Shown: piece by piece, positions 6,091-26,335 of the stretch | Position numbering within the stretch: the stretch's first letter is position 1 | Layout of the letters: each line of letters opens with the position of its first letter | DNA from: a virus | Direction: 5' to 3' (one strand) | Length of the DNA: 31,077 bases | Virus record (IMG/VR): IMGVR_UViG_3300032116_014794 | Coordinates: 1-31,077 of that record | Position numbers and translations under genes: made by a program | The notes under the pieces: model-generated | The model's database searches: none | What the model was told of the DNA's origin: nothing | The model's input: the letters and a program-made list of their open reading frames with translations, nothing else

Positions 6091-7734
6091 ATGAGTGAAT
6101 CGAATATGGGATATGAAATGACTCGAAATTTTTATTTTGGGGAGTGTTTAGATAGTGATGATCCATTGATGTTAGGTAGAATCAGAGCCAGATTGTTTGA
6201 TGAAAATATCGAACAAAGAAAAAAAGCGGCTAATGATTTTGATGAAAATGGAAGTAGCACAACTAACGGACCGTGGTCAGATAAAGATCCATTTATATTC
6301 TTACCGTTTTTACCTTATTTTATAAATCAAGTACCAAGAGTAAAAGAGCAGTGTGTTTTATTTTACTTTGATAGGACTAGAAGATCGGGTAGAAATAAAT
6401 TTTATATGATGGGCCCGTTCTCGTCACCAATGACAATAAAATACGAGGATTATAGGTCCTCACAAACTAACCTTGATTCTGGTAGACAAAACTCAAATGC
6501 GAGTTTACCGAATATAAAAAATTCTAATGGTGTTTATTATGATGTAGAAAAAACAGGAGTTTTTACCGAACCTTTTGATATTAGCTTAAATGGTAGAGAT
6601 ACTTCTGATATAATTCTGAAAGAAAGAGATATACTTTTAAGAGCGGGTAAACATTTACCGTTTGTTAGAGGCGAAGTTCCGTTTCCAAACGAAAGAAGAG
6701 CATTTTTACAAATGTCATATTTTGATAAATTATTAAATTATGAAGAACCTGTAACATATCAAAAACTAGAAAGAAATAATGAATCAATAAAATATCTTAT
6801 CGAGTATCAGTGTTCGACAAAAAACACAAACGCAGATTCTTTTACTGGTATGATTATTATTTATAAAATAGATCCAAGTCCTTTTACTCAAACCGATTTT
6901 TTTGATTGGGAAACACAATTAACTGGAGTTACACCTCAAATAATTTATACAAAAACTTTAACCGCCTTACCACTTGATAAATTCGCAAGTGAAATTAATA
7001 AAGTAATAGTTGATTTCCAACAAAGACCCTTCAAGTTATTTAATACAACAAACAATATTGTAACAACAAGCGGGACCTCAACTGTTACGACAGGCGTTAC
7101 GGAAATAACAACAGCAACAGGGTTCGATTCGGTTGAATATTGGGCATCTAACCCACCTTTTCCATTTTTTTATAGACCAGATATTGCAATTAGAAAAACT
7201 ATCACAGACTTTTTAGGTAATGTTGATACTAAATCGGTTGAAAATATGGCAAAATTACTTCAAAAAGTAGAGGTTAGTGTAACAACAACACAAAAAGGTT
7301 ATGGTTTAGTTAACGATAAAGAAAATGGTATTAGGTCACCATTTAGAGGAATAGACGAAACGGTAATACCTATAACAACAAACGTTATAGATAATACTTG
7401 TACATTAATGGGTGCTGAAACTTTGTATTTTTTATCTCATTTAGAAACAATACCAGGTAAAGAAAAGGTCGATTTATCAAATAGTATTTATGGTATTAGC
7501 GCAAATACAGTTTTTGAGCAAATATTACCAAACACATCTTCTATGGTTAGAGGTGAAGAACTAATGGAATTACTAAGATTGATAGTTAATTTTTTAATAA
7601 CTCATGATCACCCTTATCCTCAATTACCCCCAACACCAATAGCAGCAGCATCTAATATTAGTACACAAGATTTACTAACCACATTACAAGAAGCGTATCA
7701 AAAAGTTTTAAATAAAAATATTCGTATTAACTAA
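6091..7734 (+). CDS. Baseplate hub protein with gp5-like OB-fold
   Basis: A 547-aa protein. Residues about 12-115 resemble the OB-fold of T4 gp5 and related spike-hub proteins: NFYFGECLDSDDPLMLGRIR is the usual entry strand (xxGRxR), then PFIFLPFLPYFINQVPRVKE and a closing strand YMMGPF. No lysozyme active site follows, unlike T4 gp5. The centre includes a Thr-rich stretch (VTTSGTSTVTTGVTEITTA, about 326-344). The C-terminal third has ELMELLRLIVNFLITHDHPY followed by a Pro-rich segment. The family role would be the central hub under the tail spike. It is the last gene before a promoter-like element. Confidence is moderate because only the OB-fold is recognisable. Confidence 0.65.
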   Translation: MSESNMGYEMTRNFYFGECLDSDDPLMLGRIRARLFDENIEQRKKAANDFDENGSSTTNGPWSDKDPFIFLPFLPYFINQVPRVKEQCVLFYFDRTRRSGRNKFYMMGPFSSPMTIKYEDYRSSQTNLDSGRQNSNASLPNIKNSNGVYYDVEKTGVFTEPFDISLNGRDTSDIILKERDILLRAGKHLPFVRGEVPFPNERRAFLQMSYFDKLLNYEEPVTYQKLERNNESIKYLIEYQCSTKNTNADSFTGMIIIYKIDPSPFTQTDFFDWETQLTGVTPQIIYTKTLTALPLDKFASEINKVIVDFQQRPFKLFNTTNNIVTTSGTSTVTTGVTEITTATGFDSVEYWASNPPFPFFYRPDIAIRKTITDFLGNVDTKSVENMAKLLQKVEVSVTTTQKGYGLVNDKENGIRSPFRGIDETVIPITTNVIDNTCTLMGAETLYFLSHLETIPGKEKVDLSNSIYGISANTVFEQILPNTSSMVRGEELMELLRLIVNFLITHDHPYPQLPPTPIAAASNISTQDLLTTLQEAYQKVLNKNIRIN

Positions 7735-7735
7735 G

Positions 7736-7743
7736 TATTTATA
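7736..7743 (+). promoter_or_regulatory. TATTTATA promoter-like element
   Basis: TATTTATA sits one base after the upstream stop codon and 14 bases before the next ATG, in one of the few gaps of this otherwise tightly packed strand. It shares the 7-mer core seen before many genes here and would separately drive the two large surface-type proteins that follow. Confidence 0.45.
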
Positions 7744-7756
7744 TTAAAAATACGAA

Positions 7757-9217
7757 ATGTCAATTCACAGATCTTACTTTGATAAGTCAAATACTATTTT
7801 ATACAATTCCTATACTAATACAGGTAGAAACCCCATTGTGGAATTATTTTTTGGTAGGGTTGAAAATTCACCCGTACCATTAGGATACAGTAGATATATT
7901 TTTGACATAGATTTAAGTAAATTAAAAGAAAAAATTGTTTCAGGTGTAGTTTCAACAGGATGTACCGGATTTTTGGGTATAACACACACTCTACGAATGA
8001 CAAACACTTCTTTCTTTGATAAAGATTTGTTAAACGATAAAACTTCACAGGGTAGAAGGAGAGCTACTTCTTTTGACTTAATTCTTTTTAGAATTCCTCA
8101 AAATCAATATTGGGATAGTGGTGTCGGTTATGATTATTATGATTTCGGAATAACTAATTTGAATGATCGGTCATTTTCGAATAGACCAACAAATTGGTTT
8201 GAAAGAACTACTATAAGTGGTTGGTCAACGCCAGGTCTTTATAGTAATACTAATTCGTCAACAGGAACAGGAGTTAATTATTCAGCACTTACTATAGTTG
8301 ACACCCAACATTTTGAGTTTGGTAATGAAGATATAGAATTTAACATGACAAATGAAATAAATTCGATATTGTCCGGTGGAACGACAGGAGTAACAGGATG
8401 GGGTATTGCTTTTTTACCTCAAGTAGAAAATATTTCTGGACTTACTGAAAATTATTCTGTTGGTTTCTTTTCTCCTCACACACAAACATTTTATGAACCA
8501 TTTTTAGAAACTTCATATAATGACTTGATAGATGATGATAGAAATAATTTTTATGCAGGAATTAATAATGACCTATACTTATATGTTTATGAAAATGGAA
8601 ATCCTATAAATTTGGACACTAACCCAACAGTTGATATTTTAGATTCAAATGGTGATCCTGTTGTTGGGTTTACTACACTTACCACTTGTTTAGTAACAAA
8701 AGGTGTTTATAAAGTAACAATTTCTGGTTTAACATCTAATTCGATACCTTGTTTATTTTCAGACGTATGGAAAGGATTATCAATTAATGGTATATTATTA
8801 TCTGATGTTGAAAATGAATTTGCGGTACTTGAAACCGCCGGAAACTATCAAATAGGTACAACAACAAGTAAACCTAAAATTTTTGGTTTTTCTGTTGATG
8901 GTATTAAACAAAATGAGAAGGTTTTAAATACAGACATTAGAAAGGTTAATTTAACAATTAAACAAGCTTACACATCAAATTCAGTATTAAACCCAGTAGA
9001 GTGTTATTATAGAATATATGTAAGAGAGGGGTCAAATACAGAAGTACAGGTCCAAGATTGGACAAGAGTTAATAAAACACCAGACGGTTATTATTTTGTT
9101 TTTGATACAACAGATAAGATACCTAATGAATATTTTATTGACATAAAAGTAATAACTGATAAAAATGTAGATACTTATAAAAGAGAACTACAATTTCAAA
9201 TAGTAAATAAATTATAA
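7757..9217 (+). CDS. Beta-rich tail or baseplate protein (486 aa)
   Basis: A 486-aa protein rich in Thr, Asn, Tyr and Ser. The N-terminal half (about 1-255) looks like a jelly-roll or DNRLRE-type beta domain: it opens RSYFDKSNTILYNSYTNTGR, includes YSRYIFDIDLSKLKEKI, and ends with a strand-rich GWGIAFLPQ. The second half looks like two or three Ig-like sandwiches of about 80 residues each, with the strand-turn pattern PTVDILDSNGDPVVGFTTL near residue 287 and a third unit near 385. There is no signal peptide, consistent with a virion protein assembled in the cytoplasm. A peripheral baseplate or tail-fibre role is inferred from order and composition; no catalytic motif is visible. Confidence 0.65.
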   Translation: MSIHRSYFDKSNTILYNSYTNTGRNPIVELFFGRVENSPVPLGYSRYIFDIDLSKLKEKIVSGVVSTGCTGFLGITHTLRMTNTSFFDKDLLNDKTSQGRRRATSFDLILFRIPQNQYWDSGVGYDYYDFGITNLNDRSFSNRPTNWFERTTISGWSTPGLYSNTNSSTGTGVNYSALTIVDTQHFEFGNEDIEFNMTNEINSILSGGTTGVTGWGIAFLPQVENISGLTENYSVGFFSPHTQTFYEPFLETSYNDLIDDDRNNFYAGINNDLYLYVYENGNPINLDTNPTVDILDSNGDPVVGFTTLTTCLVTKGVYKVTISGLTSNSIPCLFSDVWKGLSINGILLSDVENEFAVLETAGNYQIGTTTSKPKIFGFSVDGIKQNEKVLNTDIRKVNLTIKQAYTSNSVLNPVECYYRIYVREGSNTEVQVQDWTRVNKTPDGYYFVFDTTDKIPNEYFIDIKVITDKNVDTYKRELQFQIVNKL

Positions 9218-9231
9218 AAAAATAAAAAAAT

Positions 9232-11043
9232 ATGGCAGATGGTAATAACGCTTATAAATGTGGCGACTCAGGAACAACATTAGACGTTAATTATAACGGA
9301 TTAACTTTATCGCCTGGTGATGTTGTTTCTTGGCAACTCATATCTAAAGGTGGTTTTGAAACTGGATGTGTAACAATTACAGATGTTGATGTTTCAGATT
9401 CGTCATATAGTGCACAAACACAATACACTGATTGTTATGATTGTTTAAATAACAATAATGGTGTGGTAGAATTATCTAATTGTGCTAGAGGAACGGATAG
9501 TATTATATTACCTGTATCAGATTTAGGAAGTTTTTTAGAGGTTGGTACAGTAATATATGCAACTATTGATGTTAATGTTAAAGGAATAACTGTTAGAATA
9601 ACTTCATGTTGGACTATAGATGGTTACTCAACACCAACAACTGAAAATTATAATAGATTAAATTTGTCATCTATTGTTACATTAGGTGGTAATTATGTTG
9701 GTTTTATAGATAACTGTACTGAATGCTTAGTTGAAAATTTATCACCATATGCCGTTACTAGATGTTTAGAAGGAACCATTGATCATGTTTTACTTTTGGG
9801 TGATGGATATGTTGGTAATGTTATTTCTTATACTGATGGTGTAAACATTTATTGTGGTACTGTGGGTGACCAAGAAGCCGGTTCACCTGAATGGTTATTT
9901 GTTCAAGATTTTGGAGTACCTGTATACAATGGTGAAGCGTGTGATTTATGTTTAACAACATCAAATCAAAAAGTTTTACTTGAAGATTGTACAAATCCTG
10001 AAAATCAATTAGTTGTTTGGGCATCTAATTTATTTGGTAGTGGTGAGTTTTCTCATTTATCATCATCACTTGGTTGTTTTAAAGTAATAGGACCAACAGA
10101 AGAGGCAGTAACAGAAAGTTATTTTTTAGATTTTGTACCTTCTCCAGGTTGTAGTCCATGTATTGAATGTAACGGTGTTTTGAAAGGATATATAGAGTGT
10201 GGTGACGAACCAAGTAGTGGTTCTGTTTTAATTTATGAAGATATACCATATGGTACTGTAATTTATTCACCAAATAGAGAAAGATGTATAACTATAGATA
10301 AAACAACAACAATGCCTCAAGATCATACATTGTATAGTATGACAACATTTGAAGGATGTACTGATTGTAGTGAAAATGCAAATTTTGAGTTATGGGAAGG
10401 ATCTATATGTGAAACAGGACAAATTATTTATGTCTCAACAGTATCTAGTGCTGGATTATCGGCTGGAAACATAGTAAAGGCAATGTGGGGATCGAATGAA
10501 TATGTTTGTATTGAACTACTATCAACTGCCGCTGGTGGTGATAGTGGTACATGGTACGATACCAAAAAAGATAGTTTAGGAAACAGTGAATTATATGACG
10601 ATTGTAATACTTGTGTTGGATCATCAACAATTGTTGTTGGTTTAATTAACTGTGACACAGATGAAGATAGTTATGTGACAATCAGTTTAAGTAATTACCT
10701 TTCGATTATCGGAAATGGTTTTTCATTACCTAATTATACAATAAGAGATCAAAGACAAAATTGTTACACGATTACAAGTGTGTGTCCTTTACCTAGCTCA
10801 GCATCAACTGAAAGCATGTTGGCGGTTTATTTTTATTTTAGTTGTCAGTATTGTCCTGATCAAATTATTACAAGTGCGAATACAGAATACAACACATGTG
10901 TTATATGTTGTGAGTGTGGATCAACAGGTAGCACAGTAAACTCAGTATCAACACCACATCCAACATATACAGACGGTTATAATAACCCAATATTACAATT
11001 AAATATGGTTGTACTTGGAGGTCAAAACGGATTAAACGCTTAG
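9232..11043 (+). CDS. Cysteine-repeat virion surface protein (603 aa)
   Basis: A 603-aa protein, unusually rich in Cys, built of about seven divergent repeats of roughly 70-94 residues. Each repeat has a C-x-x-C pair (CYDC 68, CTEC 162, CDLC 237, CSPC 307, CTDC 376, CNTC 458, CQYC 538), a further Cys 13-18 residues later (84, 178, 253, 323, 393, 474, 556) and a C-x-x-(I/V/L) strand before the pair (46, 126, 208, 282, 352, 426, 511). The rest is beta-rich and acidic. It has no signal peptide. The last repeat ends in a denser cluster (CVICCEC, 556-562). The family is not one I can name. The regular Cys suggest zinc knuckles or disulfides in a tail fibre or host-binding appendage. Confidence 0.72.
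   Translation: MADGNNAYKCGDSGTTLDVNYNGLTLSPGDVVSWQLISKGGFETGCVTITDVDVSDSSYSAQTQYTDCYDCLNNNNGVVELSNCARGTDSIILPVSDLGSFLEVGTVIYATIDVNVKGITVRITSCWTIDGYSTPTTENYNRLNLSSIVTLGGNYVGFIDNCTECLVENLSPYAVTRCLEGTIDHVLLLGDGYVGNVISYTDGVNIYCGTVGDQEAGSPEWLFVQDFGVPVYNGEACDLCLTTSNQKVLLEDCTNPENQLVVWASNLFGSGEFSHLSSSLGCFKVIGPTEEAVTESYFLDFVPSPGCSPCIECNGVLKGYIECGDEPSSGSVLIYEDIPYGTVIYSPNRERCITIDKTTTMPQDHTLYSMTTFEGCTDCSENANFELWEGSICETGQIIYVSTVSSAGLSAGNIVKAMWGSNEYVCIELLSTAAGGDSGTWYDTKKDSLGNSELYDDCNTCVGSSTIVVGLINCDTDEDSYVTISLSNYLSIIGNGFSLPNYTIRDQRQNCYTITSVCPLPSSASTESMLAVYFYFSCQYCPDQIITSANTEYNTCVICCECGSTGSTVNSVSTPHPTYTDGYNNPILQLNMVVLGGQNGLNA
9367..10899 (+). repeat. Seven divergent protein-level Cys repeats
   Basis: The part of the 603-aa protein covering Cys46 to Cys556. 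Repeat phase is set by C-x-x-C pairs spaced 94, 75, 70, 69, 82 and 80 residues apart. The DNA is not conserved between copies, so the repeats are old and kept at the protein level. Confidence 0.7.
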
Positions 11044-12670: not shown

Positions 12671-14662
12671 CTACCTAATCATTTTTCTAATACTTCCGTC
12701 GTCATAAATTTCAATAACAAACCCCTTTGTGTAATCAGGATTTACTTCTTGACCCATTAAATTTACATATTTAATAATTTTCTTCTCAGTAATTGTTTTT
12801 GTTACTAATATTGGTCCGTAAGTTTCAAATTTACCATCAATATCAAATTGTTGTAATCTATAATAAGTTAATTCATTTAAATTATAATCAATATAAGAAT
12901 ACTTTAATTCTTGTATTGAGTTACCGGCTGACGGAATTGTTGTGATTTTTCTCCAATTCTCACCGTTTACTGACACCTCTAAATCAAAATGACTTGAGTT
13001 ATTTTCACTTGCTGTTGTCCATTTAACAACATTCCACTGAGGGTATGGTGTGGCTTCAAATTGTGTTAATTCTACAGGTAATGAAATAGGGTTAGATATT
13101 CTTATTGTATACTCTTCAATTTCACCATAACCATAACCTATTGAATAATAAGCGTCAATATCAGGTGTATTATTCCATACAGATAATACTCTCATTAAAA
13201 CGTCCCCTGTTACCGCATCTGAAGGTATTGTTACAAGTTGTGATGTAGAATTTGCAGTTGCTTTTAACAAAACATTTTCTGTTGTTTGTAAGACACCATC
13301 ACCGTTCCAATCAATCCAAGCAGCATAACCTTGTCCTGGATTTAAAGTGTTTGCTGCAGTTACAGATAAATTGTAAGGTTCACCTTTTGTAACATTTGCA
13401 ATTATTGAGGTATAATCTGAATAAGCATCACCGTCATTAGTCGTTGTATTATTTATATCATTAAAAGTAACATTTGTTATATGATCTCCATCAACAATTC
13501 CTGATGAATATGGTGGTGCACTTTTAAGTGTTATATTTACAATATTAGAAACACCAGATGGACAAGTACCGTCTTTTGATGTTGTTCTAAAATACGCATT
13601 TGTTTCTTGTACGTTTAATTGAATGTTGTACGGATTTGCGGGGTTTGTAACAGTACCGTCTACTGTCGTAAAATTATCAAATGACCACTCAATTTTTGTT
13701 ATTGACCCACCATTTCCGGTAGTCGTTAAAGAAACCCCATCATTAACTGTTGTTAAACTTTTATTAGTACTTAATGTTCCTCCATTTGTTGGTGTTGTAC
13801 ATATCGTAACTGATGTTACTGTTGCTTGGAAACCAACCCTAATACCACTAATATCTGAAGTAAACCTTAATGTAAGTTGTCCTGAAGCATTTTCAGCAGT
13901 AATAGTTGCAGGTAATGATGTACCATTTAATGTTGCAAGTAAGGGAGAACTTGTATTTGGCCCATCATAAACATATAAGAAATCATAAACGGCCTCTATG
14001 TTGAATGATGAAAAATTTAATTGTAATTTTTTTGTATTGTCAGATGGTGTTAAAGTTACTGTTTGATCTAAATTATTATTGTATGTGTCAGTAGGTCCTC
14101 CGGCATCAGTTATTGTATAAGTAAGTGTAGATGTTAATGTTTGACTACAATTTCCTAAAAATGGTATTAGTGTATTTTGATTTGTTACAGTTGATGTAAT
14201 ACCTAAATCATCGACATATCTTTCGTGTGCACCTGATGCTCTACCATCTAAAAGTCTTATAAAAACATTTGTAAGACCTAAAGCACCAATATTTAAAGTG
14301 TATTGTTGATAGGTTGTTGTTAGTGCTGATACGGTACCCCTTGTTGTCCAAGTTGTTCCGTCAGGAGATGTTTGAACATTTAAAGTCCAAGCAGTTGAGT
14401 TACTACTTCTTCTATACCAAAAAGAAAGAACACCAGGATTTGCAATTTGTGGTGTTCTAATCCAATCACCGGCACCATTAAATCCTGCCGCATAATTACC
14501 GGTTCTTACTGGTGAAGTTGATGCAAGTATGGAATTTACACCCCATGTACCTCCTTGTGTTGTTAATGTACTTGTAAAACTTTCGTAAATTAAATATTGA
14601 TTACATTGTGAATTTGCTATCAGACTGATAAGCATGGTTAAAATTAAAAACAGTTTTTTCAT
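12671..14662 (-). CDS. Secreted CUB/GEVED multidomain protein with T9SS-type C-terminus
   Basis: A 663-aa protein that looks like a Bacteroidota exported protein. Residues 1-18 form a signal peptide (MKKLFLILTMLISLIANS). Next come a MAM or jelly-roll-like domain (about 25-160), a CUB-like domain (165-285, with YDFLYVYDGPNTSSP), an Ig-like domain (290-380) and a GEVED domain (390-522, with GYAAWIDWNGDG and GYGEIEEYTI). A fibronectin-like linker (527-620, LPVELTQFEATPYPQWNVV) is typical of flavobacterial type IX cargo. The last 38 residues, with YVNLMGQEV and GFVIEIYDDGSIRKMIR, fit a T9SS type A sorting domain. No catalytic residues are evident, so binding or adhesion is likeliest. It heads a tight run with the membrane protein and the DUF6321-like gene. 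Confidence 0.85.
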   Translation of the reverse strand: MKKLFLILTMLISLIANSQCNQYLIYESFTSTLTTQGGTWGVNSILASTSPVRTGNYAAGFNGAGDWIRTPQIANPGVLSFWYRRSSNSTAWTLNVQTSPDGTTWTTRGTVSALTTTYQQYTLNIGALGLTNVFIRLLDGRASGAHERYVDDLGITSTVTNQNTLIPFLGNCSQTLTSTLTYTITDAGGPTDTYNNNLDQTVTLTPSDNTKKLQLNFSSFNIEAVYDFLYVYDGPNTSSPLLATLNGTSLPATITAENASGQLTLRFTSDISGIRVGFQATVTSVTICTTPTNGGTLSTNKSLTTVNDGVSLTTTGNGGSITKIEWSFDNFTTVDGTVTNPANPYNIQLNVQETNAYFRTTSKDGTCPSGVSNIVNITLKSAPPYSSGIVDGDHITNVTFNDINNTTTNDGDAYSDYTSIIANVTKGEPYNLSVTAANTLNPGQGYAAWIDWNGDGVLQTTENVLLKATANSTSQLVTIPSDAVTGDVLMRVLSVWNNTPDIDAYYSIGYGYGEIEEYTIRISNPISLPVELTQFEATPYPQWNVVKWTTASENNSSHFDLEVSVNGENWRKITTIPSAGNSIQELKYSYIDYNLNELTYYRLQQFDIDGKFETYGPILVTKTITEKKIIKYVNLMGQEVNPDYTKGFVIEIYDDGSIRKMIR

Positions 14663-14692
14663 TTAAGTATTTTTAAAAAATAAGATTTCCCC

Positions 14693-14704
14693 TATAAATA
14701 AATA
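14693..14704 (-). promoter_or_regulatory. Double TATTTAT element before the CUB protein gene
   Basis: Read on the minus strand this is TATTTATTTATA followed by GGGGAAATCTT, about 31 bases before the ATG at 14662. It lies in the loop and stem of the 14689-14710 hairpin, so promoter and terminator readings overlap. Confidence 0.4.
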
Positions 14705-14748
14705 TAGGGGAACTCCTGATTGATCAACCATTTTAATGTGTAAATGAA

Positions 14749-14872: not shown

Positions 14873-16327
14873 TTAATTTTTGTATATTTTTTTGATTATT
14901 AAATTATTGCTAACAATAAAGTAAAACCCAGGTAACGCGTTTTCTAAGTTTGTTACTTTGCCGTTTATGTCGATTACTGTCAAGTTTGATAAGTCATCAC
15001 CTAAAGTTATTTTATCTTTGTTATCCCACCCGAAGTGATTTCCATTACCACCTTGATTACCGTTGTTTCCTCCACCTTGGCCAGGGTTAGAGTTATCAAC
15101 ACCGTCAGCATCGTTTCCGTGACCGTTATTACCATCTTCCACTTCTTGAATCATGTTCCAAGCAGTTTGAACTGCCAATCCTGAGTTTAATCTTCCCGAT
15201 CCGATTTTACCTACATAGTTAGGATTTAAAATATCTATGTTAGTTGCTGTTAATCTTAAAATTGAATCTATTTCTTGATTTGTTAAGTCAGGTTTAACAG
15301 ATAACATAAGTGCAACTGTTCCTGTTACGTAAGGAGCTGCAAATGATGTTCCTGAAGAGTAAGTATACCACCCCGGTGCCGGTGTCAATAATACGTTGTG
15401 GCCAGGTGCACAAATATCTACACTTGAATTTGTTTGGTGTCTTGTGTTAGGATTACCGATTGTTTTTTCGATATTATCTTGTGAACCTACACTTGTTACT
15501 GAAAATACGTGATTATAAGACGCAGGATATACTAATGTGTTTGGTCCTCCACATGTAGTTCCGTTTCCTGCTGAAGCCACGATAAATGTGCCGTTATTAT
15601 AAACCTCATCAATAGCCATTTGAGCATAAGGGTTAAAAGAACAACCTGAAGCCCAAGATAAGTTAATTACTTTGGCTCCAGAGTAAGATGCGATTAACAT
15701 GTCGTTATAGTTCATTCTATAAAGACTAAGTGTTGTGTTGTAACCGATTGACGATAAACCGATTGAGTTGTTTGTGTTTCCCGCAACTATTGTTGCCACG
15801 GCCGTACCATGTGTACGGGTTGATGTGTTTGTGTTGTCATAATAATTAATTTTACCTGTTAATTCTTCGTGATTTGTATAGAAGTTTTGATCTGATACCG
15901 CCACGTTTATTGTTGAGTCTCCTGTTGTATAAACCCAAGCATTTTCTGCCCCTATTAAATCTAAAGCCCAATTAGATGTTGAAACTATATTATAATCATT
16001 TGGTAATTCTAGGGTTTCGTATGTTGGTCCGTATTCTAACCCCTTTAATCCGTTTACTCTACTTAATGATACATATAAATCAGTTATATCACAATGACTA
16101 CAAGTAAATTCAAATACATTTTGTAATTTTTCTTGTTTTGAAGAAGGAAACGCTTTATAGTAAGTTAAGTCAGTATGTAAATCTGTAACTATTGAAATAA
16201 ATTGTGTATTTCTTTGTAATTGTTCTACATTTTCTACAGTCACCCATACAGAATTTTTTTGTCCGAAAGATACTACAGTTATTAAACTGATTAGTAATGT
16301 TGTAATTGTTGTTTTTAAGTTTTTCAT
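14873..16327 (-). CDS. Secreted subtilisin-like protease (S8) with T9SS-type C-terminus
   Basis: A 484-aa exported serine protease. Residues 1-22 are a signal peptide ending VVSFGQ, a common flavobacterial cleavage context. Residues 25-105 resemble a propeptide. The S8 catalytic domain spans about 112-392: Asp146 in INVAVSDQNF, His173 in HGTAVATIVAG, oxyanion Asn255 in ASAGN and Ser328 in SSGTSFAAPYVTG, so the triad is complete. A Gly/Asn-rich linker (about 398-432) leads to a short C-terminal domain (LSNLTVIDINGKVTNLENAL, then GFYFIVSNNLIIKKIYKN) like a T9SS type A sorting signal. Exported subtilases of this design are normally host enzymes. Here it lies directly downstream of the capsid gene in a phage head cluster. 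It may shave surface proteins, act at lysis or block superinfection. Confidence 0.9.
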   Translation of the reverse strand: MKNLKTTITTLLISLITVVSFGQKNSVWVTVENVEQLQRNTQFISIVTDLHTDLTYYKAFPSSKQEKLQNVFEFTCSHCDITDLYVSLSRVNGLKGLEYGPTYETLELPNDYNIVSTSNWALDLIGAENAWVYTTGDSTINVAVSDQNFYTNHEELTGKINYYDNTNTSTRTHGTAVATIVAGNTNNSIGLSSIGYNTTLSLYRMNYNDMLIASYSGAKVINLSWASGCSFNPYAQMAIDEVYNNGTFIVASAGNGTTCGGPNTLVYPASYNHVFSVTSVGSQDNIEKTIGNPNTRHQTNSSVDICAPGHNVLLTPAPGWYTYSSGTSFAAPYVTGTVALMLSVKPDLTNQEIDSILRLTATNIDILNPNYVGKIGSGRLNSGLAVQTAWNMIQEVEDGNNGHGNDADGVDNSNPGQGGGNNGNQGGNGNHFGWDNKDKITLGDDLSNLTVIDINGKVTNLENALPGFYFIVSNNLIIKKIYKN

Positions 16328-16356
16328 AATCTATTAGTTTTATTTTGTCTACACCA

Positions 16357-16373
16357 ATAGATATTCTATTATA
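16357..16373 (-). promoter_or_regulatory. Weak promoter candidate for the subtilase gene
   Basis: On the minus strand TATAAT (16368-16373) is followed at once by TATCTAT (16357-16363), one mismatch from the TATTTAT element. No good -35 box stands 16-18 bases upstream. It is the best candidate in this 210-base gap, which otherwise holds only the capsid terminator. Confidence 0.25.
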
Positions 16374-16492
16374 CAAGGGAAAACCACTTTTAGATACCCC
16401 CTAAACAGTCAATTTAAGTTATCACAATTAGTTATTAATATGTGAAAATACGTAGATATATACGTAATAAAAACTAATTTTTATAAAAACAA

Positions 16493-16518
16493 AAAAGGTC
16501 AGAGTAATCTGACCTTTT
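16493..16518 (-). terminator. Intrinsic terminator after the major capsid gene
   Basis: AAAAGGTCAGA (16493-16503) pairs perfectly with TCTGACCTTTT (16508-16518) around a 4-base loop. In the minus-strand direction the stem is followed by further T residues. It lies 20 bases past the capsid stop and should isolate the abundant capsid message from the protease gene downstream. It may work in both directions. Confidence 0.85.
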
Positions 16519-16537
16519 CCTATTCTAAAGATATTGA

Positions 16538-18343
16538 TTATCTCAATTCTTGTAAGTCGAATGTTCTAACTCCATCAACTGTGATTCTACCATAGAAACG
16601 GTTGTTAACCATTTTCTTAGCGTATCTTGTCATGATACCTTTGATAGGTGTAAAGTTGAATGGGTTATACATTGTAGGTGTTAACTGTAGAGGAACATAC
16701 GGAGCGTATACATATCCTGTGTCTAACAAAGATGAACCTTTGTGTCCGATAAGGATTTGGTTAGCCGGGAAGTATGGATCTCTATACACTTGGTAACGAC
16801 CTGCTAATGTACCAACTCTTTCGATACCCATGTTGTACTGATCTTGCTCAGGTGAAGCGTTAGATACGTGGAAGTACTCTAGGTCATCAAAAATAGCTGA
16901 AACTTCAGAAGAAACAACAATCCAGTTAGCCCCACCTCTCAATGTAGATTTGTGGATTTGTGCTGACAATTGGTTGATTGCTGTGATCAATGTTTGATTC
17001 CAGTCTTTTTGAGTGTAAGTCATGTTTCCTGAAATTCTTCTCCATCCGTTGTAATCCCATCTTAGGTTCCAAGCCGCCCCTTTTCTAAGGTCTCTCAAGA
17101 TTTCTCTATCGATTTCTGCCGCCACTTGCTCAGACAATAAAGCTGTTAATTCAGCCTCAGCGTCGATGTTATGGAATGCAGAAACGTCTTGTGCCAATTC
17201 AGGTGACCATTGAGCTCTTAGTTTTCTTTCTGTAACCGATACAGTAACTGACTCAAGGTCAAAAGATACTTCACCGATTTTATCTTCGAATTCTAATTCA
17301 GCATATCTTCTAAATACAGCCAAGAACGCAGTTCCTGCAACTAATTTAGTGATAGATGCTCCTGTGTAACCATCTAAAGAACTAGCGTTACAGTCAGCAC
17401 ATACTGGACAAGATAAATCTACTTCTAAGTAAATACAACCGTTTTGGTCACATACGTTATCATAAGAACCACCATTTCCGTTAGGGAAAGTAGTACTAAC
17501 TTGAGAATAAGTAGGACTTACAATTCCTTTACCATATTGTTGAGTAACAACTCTGAACAATAAAGGTCCTGAACTAACTTCACATGGAGTAGTTGCTGCT
17601 GTTAAACCAGCTGACTTGATGATTTTTAAATCAGAAAGAAAAGTTTCTGTATCGATTTCTGAACCATCAGGACCCATTAATTTACCAACACCGTTATCGT
17701 AGAAACCACACATTTTAACAATTACTTTTCTTGTGCTTGAACCGTCAAACTGAGTAGATGCTTCAGTTAATGATCCGTTGTTCCAAACTTGTACTGTTGT
17801 TGTAGCAGTAACCGCTGTCCAAGTACCTTTTGAATAATCAAACAATCCTGGAGGATCTAATGCTGCTTCAGCACCTTCATAAAATAAATCGTAAAGGTTT
17901 TTAGCATATGCGTTAGCATCATTGTAACCTGAATTAGTATCAGTTGTTGAATTTGGTGCTCCGATTGGTGCAAAGTGTGTGTTAGGGTTAGCTGCTCCAC
18001 CATTATACCCTTGAATTTTAGGTACGAAGTAGAACAATTTACCGATTGGTAAGTTCATTGCTTGTACAGAAACGATGTCATTCGCTAACAATTTAGAGAA
18101 TACTCTTCTAACGATAGGAAATACTACAGTTTCGAATGAACCTGAACTATCAGTTGATGCCGCTTCGTTGATTAAGTGAGACGCTTGGTTTTCATATAAT
18201 TGTGCCATGTTCTCTTTGATGTGTCCTCTTAGACCATCTAGGAATCCTAATCTATCCCATTTGCTAATTGTATCTTCTTTGATAACTTTAAGGTGTTTAA
18301 GACCGATGTTACCAACAAGACCTGATTCTAATAATGCTCCCAT
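16538..18343 (-). CDS. gp23: Major capsid protein, gp23-like
   Basis: A 601-aa HK97-fold capsid protein of the T4 gp23 type. Diagnostic stretches are FPIVRRVFSKLLANDIVSVQ (residues 75-94), matching T4 gp23 around its own VRR-aa-IPNLIAFDI region, and ERKLRAQWSPELAQDVSAFH followed by NIDAEAELTALLSEQVAAEI. The likely prohead protease cut is INE60|A61, close to the cut after residue 65 in T4. A region of about 200 residues (roughly 115-330) carries Cys at 212, 254, 298, 303, 312, 315 and 318, including CPVCADC. T4 gp23 is shorter (521 aa), so this region may be an enlarged insertion domain. The gene has its own promoter-like element and a strong terminator, and looks less AT-rich than its neighbours, as expected for a very highly expressed gene. 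Confidence 0.93.
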   Translation of the reverse strand: MGALLESGLVGNIGLKHLKVIKEDTISKWDRLGFLDGLRGHIKENMAQLYENQASHLINEAASTDSSGSFETVVFPIVRRVFSKLLANDIVSVQAMNLPIGKLFYFVPKIQGYNGGAANPNTHFAPIGAPNSTTDTNSGYNDANAYAKNLYDLFYEGAEAALDPPGLFDYSKGTWTAVTATTTVQVWNNGSLTEASTQFDGSSTRKVIVKMCGFYDNGVGKLMGPDGSEIDTETFLSDLKIIKSAGLTAATTPCEVSSGPLLFRVVTQQYGKGIVSPTYSQVSTTFPNGNGGSYDNVCDQNGCIYLEVDLSCPVCADCNASSLDGYTGASITKLVAGTAFLAVFRRYAELEFEDKIGEVSFDLESVTVSVTERKLRAQWSPELAQDVSAFHNIDAEAELTALLSEQVAAEIDREILRDLRKGAAWNLRWDYNGWRRISGNMTYTQKDWNQTLITAINQLSAQIHKSTLRGGANWIVVSSEVSAIFDDLEYFHVSNASPEQDQYNMGIERVGTLAGRYQVYRDPYFPANQILIGHKGSSLLDTGYVYAPYVPLQLTPTMYNPFNFTPIKGIMTRYAKKMVNNRFYGRITVDGVRTFDLQELR

Positions 18344-18417: not shown

Positions 18418-19872
18418 TTATTGAATTTTTGCCATTAAATCCTTCATTCTCAAGAATTGTGGATTTTCATAGGTTTTAGTTTCGATTAGATTTGTTGCCG
18501 ATCCTGTTTGTGGAGATCTTGAAACATTTCTTTGAACTGATTCTTTGATTGACTCCTTAACAACATTAGTCGAACCTTTTCCGTCTAATTCGTTTTTAAT
18601 TGATTTGTAAAGATTTTTAGATTCTTTCAAAGACTCGACATCATCAAATCTTCTAAGAATATTTATCTTTTCTTGTTTGGTTGTAGAATGTTCTGTAAAC
18701 AAACGTGTAGAATAAGCAAGATTTGAGTTGAATACTGCAACCTCGTTTAATTTGTTTCTGAAGAAATCTAAGGCCTTTTTATATTCTTCATTTTTTTCTC
18801 TTAACAAATTAACTTCTGATTCTAGAGATTCTACTCTAATGTGTCTTGGTGCTGTTCTTACTTTTGGTAAGCCCTTTCTACCCCAATACTTTCCATTTCC
18901 TAAAGTTCTAGCAGCTTCTTTAGTTTCGGTTTCTTTATAATCTTTTTCACCATAAACTAAATCTTCAGCACCTTCTTCTTCAGTCCATTGACTTTCTTTT
19001 TCTTCGTCACTTGTTTCAGTAACACCATGTTTCATTTTAGAAGGGTATTTGGTTGCTGATTTAGCGTTTCCACCTTTACCATGTCTTTTTGGTCCTACTT
19101 TTGGTAGTTTATCAAACCCTCCTGACATGTTAGGGTTTTTTGAATACTTGAAAGATTCCAAAACTGATTCCAAAGCTTCTTGGTCAATTTCAAAAACAGC
19201 CTCATCTTCTTCCTCTATTTCTTCATTTTCATAATATTCGCCCTCAGTTTCTTCGTAACCTTTCTTATACATTTCTTTTGGTTCTTTCATCGGTACAGGT
19301 TCAAATTCACCGCTTTCGATGCCACTCAATACAGAGTCAAAACCCATATCTTCTGATTCGTTCATATTCCCTTGTGTGTTTAAGTCATCCATCACAATAA
19401 TATATTCATTTTCTTGATCTTTGATGTGGATATCTCCGCTTTCGTCTTTTTTAACGTAAATACCATCTTCATCTCCCATCGCTTTGAATACTTTAAACAC
19501 ATCACTCATAGGTGATTTAGTCATGTCAAGTGGTGGTAACTCTGGTTTATTAGTATCCATAGTTGATACTGTTGGTTCACCTATTGGTGTTGCTTCAGTG
19601 TCTACTTCAACTTCATCTTCTACATCTTCTTCGTCTGGCATTTGATCACCTTCTTCATCTGGCATTTGATCACCTTCTTCATCTGGTGCATCTCCTTGTT
19701 CATGTAGATTTCTTTTTTTTGAACCACTTAATGATTCCTTTACTAATTCGCTGATTTCTTCCTTCATTGTAGAAGCAAGTATTCCTTTTGCATTTTCACT
19801 GATAAGTTCTTCAAGGTTCTTCATTGAAAGAAGAGCCTCTTCAACTACAGAATTCGATTTTAATTCACTCAT
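18418..19872 (-). CDS. gp22: Prohead scaffold (core) protein, gp22-like
   Basis: A 484-aa, very acidic, Glu-rich protein between the prohead protease and capsid genes, exactly where T4 has gp22. The first residues (MSELKSNSVVEEALLSMKNL) are helical, the centre is a long low-complexity acidic region with tandem GDQMPDEE units, and the last 150 residues form coiled-coil helices ending PQFLRMKDLMAKIQ. Many E-rich sites would suit digestion by the gp21-type protease, as happens to T4 gp22. The frame is open 28 codons upstream to 19956, but the ATG at 19872 is preferred: it leaves room for the TATTTAT element upstream, and the extra residues are Lys/Asn/Phe-rich noise. The assignment rests on position and composition, since scaffold proteins diverge fast. 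Confidence 0.8.
   Translation of the reverse strand: MSELKSNSVVEEALLSMKNLEELISENAKGILASTMKEEISELVKESLSGSKKRNLHEQGDAPDEEGDQMPDEEGDQMPDEEDVEDEVEVDTEATPIGEPTVSTMDTNKPELPPLDMTKSPMSDVFKVFKAMGDEDGIYVKKDESGDIHIKDQENEYIIVMDDLNTQGNMNESEDMGFDSVLSGIESGEFEPVPMKEPKEMYKKGYEETEGEYYENEEIEEEDEAVFEIDQEALESVLESFKYSKNPNMSGGFDKLPKVGPKRHGKGGNAKSATKYPSKMKHGVTETSDEEKESQWTEEEGAEDLVYGEKDYKETETKEAARTLGNGKYWGRKGLPKVRTAPRHIRVESLESEVNLLREKNEEYKKALDFFRNKLNEVAVFNSNLAYSTRLFTEHSTTKQEKINILRRFDDVESLKESKNLYKSIKNELDGKGSTNVVKESIKESVQRNVSRSPQTGSATNLIETKTYENPQFLRMKDLMAKIQ
19627..19690 (-). repeat. Tandem 24-base repeat in the scaffold gene
   Basis: Two nearly identical 24-base units (19627-19650 and 19651-19674) plus a partial third encode GDQMPDEE. 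They differ at one base, so the duplication is recent. The repeat keeps the frame and only lengthens the acidic linker. Confidence 0.7.
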
Positions 19873-19906
19873 TTTTTTCGCAAAGTGTTTTTTGTTTATT
19901 TTATAG

Positions 19907-19913
19907 ATAAATA
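19907..19913 (-). promoter_or_regulatory. TATTTAT promoter-like element before the scaffold gene
   Basis: Minus-strand ATATATTTATC, 34 bases before the chosen ATG at 19872 and just past the terminator at 19980-19999. Its position supports starting the scaffold protein at 19872 rather than 19956, because the longer frame would contain the promoter. Confidence 0.45.
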
Positions 19914-19979
19914 TATCATTTTTCAAAAAAAACCTTTTATTGTATGTGTTATTCAAAAAAAAGTGAAAAAATAAAAAAA

Positions 19980-20247: not shown

Positions 20248-20952
20248 TTATTTATCCAAATAATCGGATAATTTTTTCATTAAGTAAATAGATTTGTCTA
20301 AACTTGTTGATTCTACGTTTTCGTGCTCAGTAAGTTTTTCTTCGTACTTAGGTCTATCTTCTTTGTTTAAGTAAAGATATGCGCCAGGTGTAGAAGGTGA
20401 AGAAACTAAGTCAAAACAAATTAATTCAAAATCTTCCTGAACTTCATTTTGCTCTCCTTTTTTTACTAAAGACCCAACACCTCTAGAAGAAACACCCATA
20501 GTCACTCCTTGTCTCATCATGTTAGCTGCCACATCTCCTTTTGAAGAAATAATACCTCTTTCGTGAAAACCAGGAGAGGTTAGTAATTTAATCTTTCCCA
20601 TCAAAACATTATCTTCCCACCAAACATCAGTAATTAAATGAGCAACTCTATCTAAATCAATAAGTGAAGATTCGGGGTGATTTAATTCAGAAATCGCCAT
20701 ACCACGATTAATCATTTCCTTATATTTTTCAGCTTCCCTTTTTAAAATCTTTTCAGGATATATTCTACCGTTTCTATTTGGTACTCCATATTTCTGTAAA
20801 GTAGCATAAAATACAAATGGTTTAGAATGATCCAATTGTCCATAAGACTCTTTTATAACTTGACTATTTCTATGTTCGTTTGGATTTATAATTCCAGCAT
20901 CCCACTCAACTAGAATACCCTTACCACTATCATTTGGTCCTAATATTTTCAT
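20248..20952 (-). CDS. gp21: Prohead core protease, gp21-like
   Basis: A 234-aa serine protease of the herpesvirus-assemblin/T4 gp21 type. FVFYATLQKYGVPNRNGRIY (residues 47-66) is the typical entry, followed by the catalytic His92 in SELNHPESS and the nucleophile Ser155 or Ser156 in MGVSSRGVG. The downstream ELICFDLVSSPSTPGAYL also matches the family. In T4 the enzyme sits in the prohead core and cuts scaffold, capsid and internal proteins after (I/L)-x-E, then itself. Its place between the portal and scaffold genes is the T4 order. A TATTTAT element lies 13 bases upstream, overlapping the end of the preceding gene. Confidence 0.92.
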   Translation of the reverse strand: MKILGPNDSGKGILVEWDAGIINPNEHRNSQVIKESYGQLDHSKPFVFYATLQKYGVPNRNGRIYPEKILKREAEKYKEMINRGMAISELNHPESSLIDLDRVAHLITDVWWEDNVLMGKIKLLTSPGFHERGIISSKGDVAANMMRQGVTMGVSSRGVGSLVKKGEQNEVQEDFELICFDLVSSPSTPGAYLYLNKEDRPKYEEKLTEHENVESTSLDKSIYLMKKLSDYLDK

Positions 20953-22704: not shown

Positions 22705-24525
22705 TCACTTATCAATTAAATCTTTCAATTTTTTGTCAATTTGGTCAATGGTTATTCTACCTTTAGATAAATCAAAGTAGTCGGGACCGTTTAATAGTGT
22801 TTCTTCTAGTAATAAATCTAAATCTTTTCTAACTAACCTTTCAGTTGTAGGTGGTTCAGATCCTCCTCCCGCTGGTGGTTCAGGTGGTGGGGGTGGAGAT
22901 GATGGTTCAGCACCTCCCGGTGGAGGTGGAGCACCTCCTTCAGCACCTCCTTCAGTTGGTGCCGTTTCGGTTCCTCCTGATTTTTGTACATAAAGATTGT
23001 CTAAGTTTGAGAATAACCCGGTTTTTGTAATTATTTCAGGTGTTTTCACTAACTCACCAGCAACCGCTCTTTCAATTCTTTGTTGTTGTATATCTAATCT
23101 AATTTCTTCGTCTGAGAAACCTAAGATATGTTTTTTAGCCCAAGACGCGGATGTTGGTGAAATTGTATTAGCAATTTCTGTTACCGCTTCTTTATAAATG
23201 GCAAACTTTTCTTTCCATACCTCTAAATTTAATAATTCACCTTGTTTAGATGGATTATTTAATGATAATACAAAATTTGTTAATTCATCTTCAAAACCAA
23301 GTAAAAATAAATGAATAATAGCGATTTTATTTAACTCAGCTAACATTGATTTTTGAATTCTATTTATTGTTCTTGCAAATCTAATATCAAGTAAAGATAA
23401 ATTTTTACCGTCACCTACCGCTTCCTCAAAACCTAAATACGCCTTTGGTATTCTTAAAGCGGTTACTAATTTCTTTTGAATATATTCAATATCCGCAATC
23501 TCCGCCATGTTTGCGGCGCCTGCTAATGTTTCTATTGGGTTATTTGCAGTCGCATCTCTAACAGGAATAAAATAATCTTGGTCGACAGCCATTTGATTAT
23601 ACCTCATGTCAACATTACCCGTTTTAGGATCAACAATTTGGTCTCTTTTAAATTTACTAGCAACTCTTTGTACATAAGCATCAACATCTTTATCGTCCAT
23701 ATTACCAACAAAAACTTTAAAAACTCGTCTTTCAGGTGCTCTTGATAATCTGTAAATTAACATTGCATCTTCACATAAAAGTAATTGTTTCCAAATACGT
23801 CTAGCTTTTTCTAACATTGAAGTTCCATATGGTAGTTTTCTGTCATCACCTAAAATTCTAAAGTGAGCAATTTCCCAAGTGTTAAACTCCATATTTTTTT
23901 CTTTCCAAACAAATTTTAAAGCATCGTTTTCCATTTCCTGAGAGTATTTATCAGGTTGGAATCTCATACCTTTTTCTAATCTTTCAATTTGAATGTTTGG
24001 TAACTGCTGGCATCCTACAACACCTTTTTCTGGATCTAATTTTAAGTAAATAAAATTATCTCCGAACTTACATGTGTTTCTTGTCCACATAGGTAAGTTA
24101 GTGTTTATATCCAACTTATTAACAAACAAATCAATTAAAACTTGTTTGATTCTTTTTGATTCTGAAAAAACTTTTAAAATATCACCATCTTGATCTGGAG
24201 TTGTTGATTCCTCCGCATAAATGTCAAGAGCAGCTGATATTTCAGGTGTGTACTCCATAGATTCATAATCATAATATGAAGCCATTCTTGTCGGTTCATA
24301 ATACACTGCTTGTTGATATAGATTACTTTCAACTTTTTGCCATTGTTTACCTATGTATAGTGTTTGCTGTGCTTCTAATTTTTCTGTTTCAAACTCCTGT
24401 TTATTTTTAGTTTTTAGAAGTTCCTTTTTGTCAAATTTAAAAACCGGTGCTTGCTGATCTAAATTAGAGTCAGGCCCAAAAACCTTACCTAATCTCTGCC
24501 AAACGGTTATCTTTTTTTCTGCCAT
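22705..24525 (-). CDS. gp20: Portal protein, gp20-like
   Basis: A 606-aa portal protein, the dodecameric DNA channel at the head vertex. Recognisable stretches are MASYYDYESMEYTPEISAAL and DIYAEESTTPDQDG near residues 80-115, LPYGTSMLEKARRIWKQLLL with EDAMLIYRLSRAPERRVF in the middle, and YIQKKLVTALRIPKAYLG with an aromatic-rich follow-up; all are typical of T4-like portals. It exceeds T4 gp20 (524 aa) mainly through a C-terminal low-complexity tail (about 520-565) of Gly, Pro, Ala and Glu, including runs of four or five prolines. The gene lies between terminase and the core protein gene as in T4. Upstream there is only a weak variant of the promoter motif. Confidence 0.93.
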   Translation of the reverse strand: MAEKKITVWQRLGKVFGPDSNLDQQAPVFKFDKKELLKTKNKQEFETEKLEAQQTLYIGKQWQKVESNLYQQAVYYEPTRMASYYDYESMEYTPEISAALDIYAEESTTPDQDGDILKVFSESKRIKQVLIDLFVNKLDINTNLPMWTRNTCKFGDNFIYLKLDPEKGVVGCQQLPNIQIERLEKGMRFQPDKYSQEMENDALKFVWKEKNMEFNTWEIAHFRILGDDRKLPYGTSMLEKARRIWKQLLLCEDAMLIYRLSRAPERRVFKVFVGNMDDKDVDAYVQRVASKFKRDQIVDPKTGNVDMRYNQMAVDQDYFIPVRDATANNPIETLAGAANMAEIADIEYIQKKLVTALRIPKAYLGFEEAVGDGKNLSLLDIRFARTINRIQKSMLAELNKIAIIHLFLLGFEDELTNFVLSLNNPSKQGELLNLEVWKEKFAIYKEAVTEIANTISPTSASWAKKHILGFSDEEIRLDIQQQRIERAVAGELVKTPEIITKTGLFSNLDNLYVQKSGGTETAPTEGGAEGGAPPPPGGAEPSSPPPPPEPPAGGGSEPPTTERLVRKDLDLLLEETLLNGPDYFDLSKGRITIDQIDKKLKDLIDK

Positions 24526-24562: not shown

Positions 24563-26335
24563 CTAAACTCTTTTAGGTCCGAATAACCATAAATACTTTT
24601 CATAATCAGTTTTTGTTGGTTGATTATTATTATATTGAGATAAGTATGGGTCTATTGGTATTGAAGGGTTAAAGTCTATAGATGAGTTTTTATATGTTTT
24701 AACATCTGTTGTCCACGATTCAATCATTGCCTTTGCTTGTTCTGTTGCTTTTTCTAATTTAGAAAAAGAAGTTTCAGCGACATATAAAGCCATAGCCATC
24801 GCCATAATTAAATCGTCATGCTGACCTTTTTGGTGGTCGGGTTTACCGTTTATGTAAACAAAAGTATTTAATTCATTATAAAGTCTTTGAGATCTAACTC
24901 CAAAATCATGTCTCAACGCTTCTTCAAACGCGGCCACTATTTGAACCCTTTTTGAATTAAAATTAATACCAGGTATTTTATCTTGTGCTTTTGGGTCCCA
25001 TTTCCATTTATCTGCCGGGTTTACTCCATCAACATAAAGATTTTTATAACCAAGTTCCTGTAGTTTTCTTGATGTAGCAACACCCATCCCACCGGTAATG
25101 TCAGTAACAATAAAGGCATTATACATTGTGGCCCATTTATACGCTATTTCAGCAACAACATCAGGTGGTACCTTTGCAATGTATTCTAAAACTTGTTCTC
25201 TTTCATCAAAATCAATTATAATAAAAGTTGTAAAGTCTTCGCTATCACCTCTTGAAACATCCATACCCATAATATATTTATGACCTTCAACCGGCTCTTT
25301 CCATTGCCATAAAACGCCGCCCATAAATTTATTTTCAGGTTCTTTTAGTTGATTGTCTTTAATTGACTTCATTGTTTCAGGTGGAATTACGTTATCACCT
25401 GAACCCAAAAAGTTACACTCAAGTTCCTGAGAAATTTTTCTCCTATCAAACTTTAACTTTTTAGCCATGGCTTCAAACCACGAACTATAAGCCCTATAAC
25501 CTTTTTCTAATTTTTGTTTGATACCTTCAAAATCTCTTTCTCTAACTTTTACTTCTGAATAATCTAGTGTTATTTCATTATCTTTATAATCGGCTCGATT
25601 TAACATGTAATGTACAATATCATTACACTTAATTAATTTTAAATCTTTAGAATATCTAGGGTCTCTCCACCAATACATTTCAGTGATTCTAAAGTCATTC
25701 ATTCCTTTTATTGCTTGACTGTAAATAGAATAATAAATTGGATCAAAACCGTTTGGTGTTGATATCACAATAACTTTACCTCCTGTTGAAAGGGAAGCCA
25801 TACATGCTGACCAAAAATCTTCGTCAGCATCAATATAAGCAGCCTCATCGAATATTAAGATTGTTGGGGTATACCCACGTAACGCATCTTTTGAAGTTGC
25901 AACCGCTTTTACTTCACACCCATTAGTCAATTTAAAGTGTCTTTGTGAGTTTTTTTCAGCAGAAAACCCAACACCCATCCATTTTGGCCATTGATCAACA
26001 AATGCCCTGACTTTATTTGCCATCTCAACCGCAGTGTCAAGTTTGTTCGCAATTATTAGAATTTTTTCAGGTTTTTCTTTTTTTGCAAATACCAACCTTT
26101 TTGATGCCCAAGCAGATGTAACTGTTGATACTCCAGCCTGACGATATTTTAGTGCTATATTTTCATCACACTCATCGTAATCTTTTACCAATGTTACTTG
26201 ATCATTAAATAATTCTAACGGTACATACTTAGATTGTGTGTTGTCGTAAGTTTGTAAATAGGTTTTAAGTGCGTAAGGAGTATCGTTTACACATTTGGCA
26301 TATTCTAAAAGAGCTTGTTCTCTTGATAAAGACAT
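24563..26335 (-). CDS. gp17: Large terminase subunit, gp17-like
   Basis: A 590-aa packaging motor protein. The ATPase half has Walker A-like LKYRQAGVST (residues 62-71) and Walker B TILIFDEAAYI (158-168), followed by the coupling motif VISTPNG (190-196). The nuclease half has Asp359 in YIMGMDVSRGDSEDFTTF, a second acidic site in IVTDITGG (Asp412) and GQHDDLIMAMAMAL (Asp507/508). The P-loop lacks the usual Lys before Ser/Thr (T4 has GKTT) but has Lys63 at its first position, the arrangement seen in the deviant Walker A of lambda-type terminases. Length and order are close to T4 gp17 (610 aa). No small terminase is evident next to it. Confidence 0.94.
   Translation of the reverse strand: MSLSREQALLEYAKCVNDTPYALKTYLQTYDNTQSKYVPLELFNDQVTLVKDYDECDENIALKYRQAGVSTVTSAWASKRLVFAKKEKPEKILIIANKLDTAVEMANKVRAFVDQWPKWMGVGFSAEKNSQRHFKLTNGCEVKAVATSKDALRGYTPTILIFDEAAYIDADEDFWSACMASLSTGGKVIVISTPNGFDPIYYSIYSQAIKGMNDFRITEMYWWRDPRYSKDLKLIKCNDIVHYMLNRADYKDNEITLDYSEVKVRERDFEGIKQKLEKGYRAYSSWFEAMAKKLKFDRRKISQELECNFLGSGDNVIPPETMKSIKDNQLKEPENKFMGGVLWQWKEPVEGHKYIMGMDVSRGDSEDFTTFIIIDFDEREQVLEYIAKVPPDVVAEIAYKWATMYNAFIVTDITGGMGVATSRKLQELGYKNLYVDGVNPADKWKWDPKAQDKIPGINFNSKRVQIVAAFEEALRHDFGVRSQRLYNELNTFVYINGKPDHQKGQHDDLIMAMAMALYVAETSFSKLEKATEQAKAMIESWTTDVKTYKNSSIDFNPSIPIDPYLSQYNNNQPTKTDYEKYLWLFGPKRV

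Follow-up and report, generated by a model that had tools for sequence, protein, structure and literature searches.

A subtilase gene behind the capsid gene

The stretch analysed here (the window) is a 31,077-bp IMG/VR viral contig from a T4-like lake-water phage of Bacteroidota. Its head cluster lies on the minus strand, where profile matches and gene order give the T4-like succession TerL, portal, protease, scaffold and major capsid protein (MCP), gp23 included. As the preliminary description had it, a subtilase gene occupies positions 14873–16327, inside this cluster and directly behind the capsid gene. It reads on the minus strand.

24563–26335, minus strand: TerL, head cluster
22705–24525, minus strand: portal, head cluster
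20248–20952, minus strand: prohead protease, head cluster
18418–19956, minus strand: gene at the scaffold position, head cluster
16538–18343, minus strand: major capsid protein gp23 (PF07068, E = 5.7e-75)
14873–16327, minus strand: S8 subtilase preproprotein, 484 aa, with a short T9SS-like C-terminal domain (PF00082, phage homologues, dN/dS)

A scan of IMG/VR found homologues of the subtilase in other phages, at 20 loci, and at least 18 viral contigs among these loci share the MCP–subtilase junction, at 76–100% identity, with one additional gene between the two in L009 and L010. Because the junction recurs in this way, misassembly, by which a host segment would have been joined into the viral contig and which the preliminary description had itself raised, is excluded, its probability being negligible. 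A full-length version of the gene is also found in the phage contig L139, and the closest bacterial copy found is only 57% identical. Pairwise dN/dS of the whole gene among phage homologues is 0.09–0.15, indicating purifying selection.

Elsewhere in the window, positions 9232–11043 encode a Cys-rich protein with homologues at many loci; its C-terminus is constant (PHP.YTDGY...QLNMV.LGG.NGLNA), its length among relatives is hugely variable (59–929 aa) and it is perhaps a virion surface protein. Separately, many ORFs of phage L027 (1991–3834 and 15279–17769) start with short motifs like MKKLKTYQNFNES, which recall the T4 capsid-targeting sequences cleaved by the prohead protease.

The subtilase gene is flanked by the following non-coding features:

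16491–16520, minus strand: terminator-like hairpin between gp23 and subtilase (hairpin search)
16328–16420, minus strand: conserved leader upstream of subtilase, TTGAnTGTTTAGGGG...TATCTATTGGTGTA, kept among divergent phages
14687–14712, minus strand: terminator-like hairpin between subtilase and the CUB/GEVED gene (hairpin search)

The leader spans the 93 bases ahead of the start codon and holds conserved blocks in phages at synonymous distances of 0.5–1.1; its core, TGTTTAGGGGGT, has no second exact copy in the window. It is probably a promoter or a leader/regulatory RNA. In a search for late promoters, exact matches to TATAAATA were scattered on both strands and none precedes the subtilase. 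Seven terminator-like hairpins were found in the region, with 2.7 expected. Selection, the conserved leader and the flanking hairpins therefore indicate that the subtilase is maintained in phages and is probably transcribed as a separate unit.

A predicted secreted protease with intact catalytic residues

The protein can be divided as follows:

16262–16327, minus strand: signal peptide, residues 1–22, predicted cleavage before Gln23 (sequence, homologues, Q-rule)
15998–16261, minus strand: prodomain, residues 23–110 (AlphaFold2 blocks at pLDDT 54–79 over residues 31–100)
15152–15997, minus strand: S8 catalytic domain, residues 111–392 (profile, alignment, catalytic residues)
15890–15892, 15809–15811, 15563–15565 and 15344–15346, minus strand: codons of Asp146, His173, Asn255 and Ser328
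15005–15151, minus strand: Gly/Asn-rich linker, residues 393–441 (comparison with relatives)
14876–15004, minus strand: short C-terminal domain (CTD), residues 442–484 (motifs, profile comparison, purifying selection, three predicted strands)

Residues 139–364 match Peptidase_S8 (PF00082) with E = 3.7e-31 and 108.9 bits, the cut-off being 21.8. The Asp146/His173/Ser328 triad named in the preliminary description is complete; together with the oxyanion residue Asn255 it is intact in the window, invariant across nine phage homologues and aligned to the catalytic residues of solved subtilisins, including Ak.1 protease (1dbi). The signal peptide was likewise borne out by heuristic prediction from the sequence, as the N-terminus, MKNLKTTITTLLISLITVVSFG followed by QK, is a typical Sec signal in which Gln occupies position +1. 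The site is conserved in phage homologues (SFGQ/SFAQ/AFSQ) with the hydrophobic core kept, and a Gln right after the cleavage site is the Bacteroidota “Q-rule” (PMC10653852).

The AlphaFold2 input was the nine aligned phage sequences, and with a mean pLDDT of 38 the model is usable for the prodomain and tail only, that of the S8 catalytic domain being unusable. The prodomain is compact, precedes the catalytic domain and runs strand-helix-strand-strand-helix-strand; by this element order we take it to resemble an inhibitor I9-type subtilase propeptide. The Gly/Asn linker occupies the place of the SprB repeats in bacterial homologues and in phage L139.

A position directly after gp23 within the head cluster would suit a structural or head-decoration protein of the virion carrying an incidental protease domain. 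This reading was rejected as very improbable, however, as the Q-rule signal peptide would remove the protein from the cytoplasm, and a terminator-like hairpin separates the gene, with its own conserved leader, from gp23. Its presence is also patchy: among the capsid-selected loci, most close relatives sharing the head cluster are without the subtilase, and other phage contigs have copies of it and of the neighbouring CUB protein at places away from the gp23 slot.

A probable shortened type IX sorting signal

Aligned with long-CTD relatives, the window tail shows motifs B (VIDINGK), D (GFYFI) and E (KKIYKN), with the YPNP half of the domain absent. This is the pattern of P. intermedia-type short CTDs, namely a Gly in motif B, GxY then Ile/Val in D and basic residues in E. 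AlphaFold2 places strands at residues 450–452, 467–473 and 476–483 with pLDDT 55–76, in a model that is poor as a whole (38).

The likeness to type IX secretion system (T9SS) type A sorting domains drawn in the preliminary description stood in part. There was no match of the last 80 residues to the T9SS type A profiles (TIGR04183/PF18962) in NCBIfam and Pfam at E ≤ 10, hence the window protein is not assigned to the curated family. Relatives of the protein do score above the cut-offs, and a profile of short phage tails, with L027 left out, matched 39 bacterial long CTDs at 81.6% in profile–profile comparison, against at most 1.8% for the C-termini of control gene families from the same loci. 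As a single sequence, the window tail scores weakly against the CTD HMM (7.3 bits, a value reached by 2 of 332 other ORF tails, one of them from a cargo-like gene, and by 10 of 2000 shuffles), and profile comparison gave no match between the tail and the Crocinitomicaceae short-tail module. Given the bacterial homologues, phages L139 and L027, the kept motifs and the 81.6% profile match, we read the tail as a shortened CTD, homologous by sequence comparison to T9SS CTDs, to which the curated profiles are blind. As standard profiles miss such short signals, the T9SS cargo of phages and of Crocinitomicaceae-type bacteria is probably under-counted. A further side observation is a 1015-aa ORF in G012 (the contig of L049, 182849–184369) with several internal, sub-threshold T9SS CTD-like matches.

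If the shortened CTD were non-functional, the enzyme would halt after Sec as a periplasmic protease and aid lysis by cutting envelope proteins, which would agree with a tail that lacks the YPNP half and is recognised by none of the curated T9SS profiles. We consider this improbable, however. Purifying selection maintains the tail (pairwise dN/dS of the tail alone is 0.07–0.19 among phage homologues), and two adjacent genes as well as an SprB-repeat gene in L010 all have short CTD-like tails. Furthermore, cleavage and C-terminal glycosylation have been demonstrated for several short-CTD proteins of P. intermedia (PMC11969387), and the 22 C-terminal residues of HBP35 are enough for P. gingivalis to export GFP (PMC4804311, PMC11969387). 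Each species has its own form of the CTD interface, and CTDs are not freely swapped between species (PMC11285876), hence likeness at the level of motifs is no guarantee of recognition.

Descent from bacterial T9SS cargo

Bacterial homologues of the subtilase, 47–57% identical, lie in chromosomes of Crocinitomicaceae and other Flavobacteriales (e.g., L056, L065 and L060). They have the architecture signal peptide–S8–SprB–long CTD over about 715 aa, with Por_Secre_tail above cut-off in both of the two tested. The full bacterial architecture recurs in the same slot of L139, a 229-kb T4-like phage contig with a capsid protein 87% identical to that of the window; the sorting domain of its 683-aa subtilase reaches 43.9 bits for PF18962 Por_Secre_tail (cut-off 27) and 46.5 bits for TIGR04183 (cut-off 23). 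Phage L027 combines S8 with a long CTD (26–31.4 bits, TIGR04183 cut-off 23). A search of INPHARED found only subtilases of about 30% identity.

Phage subtilases form a single clade (support 86/94) among those of Crocinitomicaceae. The branching order is L139 (SprB and long CTD), L027 (long CTD), L031 (short CTD) and the window clade (short CTD), with the position of L139 unsure owing to its long branch. Capture followed by trimming would yield this order, which is that of CTD reduction. It is well supported that the phage subtilase descends from long-CTD T9SS cargo and that the window form lost the SprB repeats and half of the CTD. SprA is encoded in all five genomes that hold the near bacterial homologues, and none was found in the three phage records searched. 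Of the host T9SS route put forward in the preliminary description, descent from T9SS cargo thus stands, through relatives in the same slot and the same clade, and export itself is strongly suggested by these comparisons.

A possible exchangeable slot for predicted exported proteins

The gene next to the subtilase is predicted to encode a second exported protein:

12671–14662, minus strand: predicted exported CUB/GEVED protein, 663 aa, with signal peptide, CUB, GEVED, FN3-like part and short tail (PF00431 5e-10, PF20009 2e-13)
12674–12784, minus strand: C-terminal tail of the CUB protein, 37 residues, VNLMGQEV..GFVIEIYDDGS.RK (Crocinitomicaceae exported-protein tail family)

The front and middle of this protein are swapped between phages and the tail is constant, modelled by AlphaFold2 as three strands at a mean pLDDT of 82.8. 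A model of the FN3-like part plus tail matches 53 of 60 Crocinitomicaceae-type family genomes, many matches extending to the tail end, and in the 20 loci read a signal peptide starts most proteins with a full N-terminus. CUB-type phage tails and bacterial tails match at 99.4% in profile comparison. In a fold search with the tail, all matches were to FN3/Ig-like domains (E about 1e-3), which is uninformative on the CTD. Because its single-sequence HMM score against long CTDs lies within the background, we place the CUB protein in the Crocinitomicaceae tail module only and claim no CTD homology.

In 45 of the 80 capsid-selected loci the slot, which runs from gp23 to the conserved genes that follow, is complete, and nine of these 45 carry such a cargo gene (both counted by hand from the table). 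Many other complete slots hold unrelated ORFs, several of them HNH-type endonuclease-like. In L010 a third cargo gene (7101–7790, 229 aa) with a signal peptide and SprB repeats (PF13573 3.6e-10) lies between gp23 and the subtilase, and its product ends in a short CTD (VYDLSGK...GMYIILENNKTTKIIK). Behind gp23 and an HNH-like ORF, L204 encodes a DNA/RNA non-specific endonuclease with a signal peptide (7875–8450, Endonuclease_NS, PF01223 2e-23) and a second subtilase (8478–10733, PF00082 1.6e-31), only 26% identical, with a signal peptide and a CTD-like GFY...KK tail. This second subtilase looks like an independent capture into the same slot.

Several side observations concern the same kinds of gene. 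The SprB gene of L010 appears as if the SprB part of an ancestral protease had turned into a separate gene. L027 (10132–12792) has three consecutive ORFs with signal peptides (490, 193 and 188 aa), the first two ending in ..PISHD and ..PIQHD and the last being type B CHU_C (PF13585 3e-11); the trio resembles one large adhesin divided into separately exported pieces. In L055 (8001–8171), and also in L054, the CUB-protein homologue is shrunk to about 56 aa by an internal deletion, the signal peptide and protein start being fused to the last ~16 tail residues.

The cargo set, comprising two unrelated subtilases, an exported nuclease and SprB- and CUB/GEVED-type surface proteins, may point to a broader arrangement. 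Through an exchangeable slot behind gp23, T4-like Bacteroidota phages would export varied enzymes and adhesins via the host T9SS, with signals that shrink to ~40 residues once captured, and these exports together would remodel the surface of the infected cell, excluding rival phages. We regard this generalisation as doubtful at present.

A proposed role during infection

We consider it likely that the window subtilase is an exported T9SS cargo. A T4-like Bacteroidota phage would have taken the gene from the T9SS cargo of a Crocinitomicaceae-type host. Sec would export the protein, which would fold in the periplasm with its own prodomain, and the host T9SS would then carry it over the outer membrane by means of the miniaturised CTD (motifs B, D and E). 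Removal of the prodomain would activate the enzyme, which would arrive on or outside the infected cell. There it may strip or alter T9SS-dependent surface proteins, probable phage receptors, during infection, and such stripping would limit superinfection and the loss of progeny on cell remains. Sec export, T9SS passage and surface attachment, activation, the working of the short CTD, timing and role are all steps that we infer.

As possible purposes the preliminary description had suggested receptor shaving against superinfection, attack on the surface layers of neighbours, or help with release. For the role, removal or masking of receptors is favoured because work on F. johnsoniae and F. columnare has put forward parts of the T9SS-dependent gliding machinery as candidate phage receptors (PMC7345892). 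We put forward surface stripping tentatively, with much less confidence than export.

An auxiliary nutrition gene would share the export step and differ in purpose, the exported protease digesting environmental protein to feed the infected cell and taking no part in conflict among phages or between phage and host. T9SS peptidases of Bacteroidota are commonly nutritional, and the bacterial homologues of the subtilase are ordinary cargo. However, its slot partners are adhesin-like (CUB, GEVED, SprB) or, in L204, a predicted exported endonuclease, and these suit surface remodelling or exclusion at least equally well; we therefore hold the nutritional purpose to be rather unlikely.

If the proposed export is true, phages can use the T9SS of their host to bring an active protease to the exterior of a Gram-negative cell, a way of changing the infected-cell surface which has so far been proposed solely from annotation. 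The phage clade is also a natural deletion series of the sorting signal, from SprB plus long CTD through long CTD to short CTD, which can test minimal T9SS recognition.

Comparison with known systems

The preliminary description considered the strategy unusual, but the idea of T9SS hijacking is already present in Bellas et al. 2020, who proposed for Cryophage that phage-encoded T9SS cargo hijacks the host system, with superinfection exclusion among the roles (PMC7468147). Cryophage is alike in being a Bacteroidetes phage with T9SS type A sorting domains on phage proteins and variable genome islands, but it is a 76-kb circular phage whose cargo consists of an endoglucanase, a GH39 hydrolase and a PA14 protein (PMC7468147). 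The window differs in its subtilase, catalytically complete by sequence, its T4-like lineage, the position behind gp23 and the shortened CTD.

In P. intermedia, 48 cargo proteins are predicted with short CTDs of ~40–55 residues that contain motifs B, D and E in one three-stranded sheet (PMC11969387), and the window tail is alike in length and motifs, with three strands predicted in a poor model, but differs in the spacing from motif B to D and in sequence. The same paper calls P. intermedia the sole species for which CTDs of both lengths have been reported (PMC11969387), whereas the short tails described here occur in phages, and CTD-like ones in the host family Crocinitomicaceae.

The Crocinitomicaceae subtilase cargo (L056, L065, L060) shares the signal peptide, the prodomain and an S8 domain 47–57% identical, but consists of ordinary chromosomal genes of ~715 aa with SprB repeats and a full Por_Secre_tail. 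In crAss-like phages, ORFs with T9SS sorting domains adjoin the head module near BACON ORFs; the available part of that source gives a carbohydrate-binding context and mentions no protease (PMC6949934). Bacillus SPO1-like phages (phrog_3677; SP-15, Goe3) also encode S8 proteases, but these are about 30% identical, belong to phages of Gram-positive hosts and are comparable by the S8 protease only.

Within the literature searched, Cryophage is the one case in which T9SS cargo encoded by a phage is described in detail (PMC7468147). What the present case adds is a protease as cargo, a T4-like lineage as its carrier and a slot beside the capsid gene; the main novelty is the shortened signal together with its intermediate forms.
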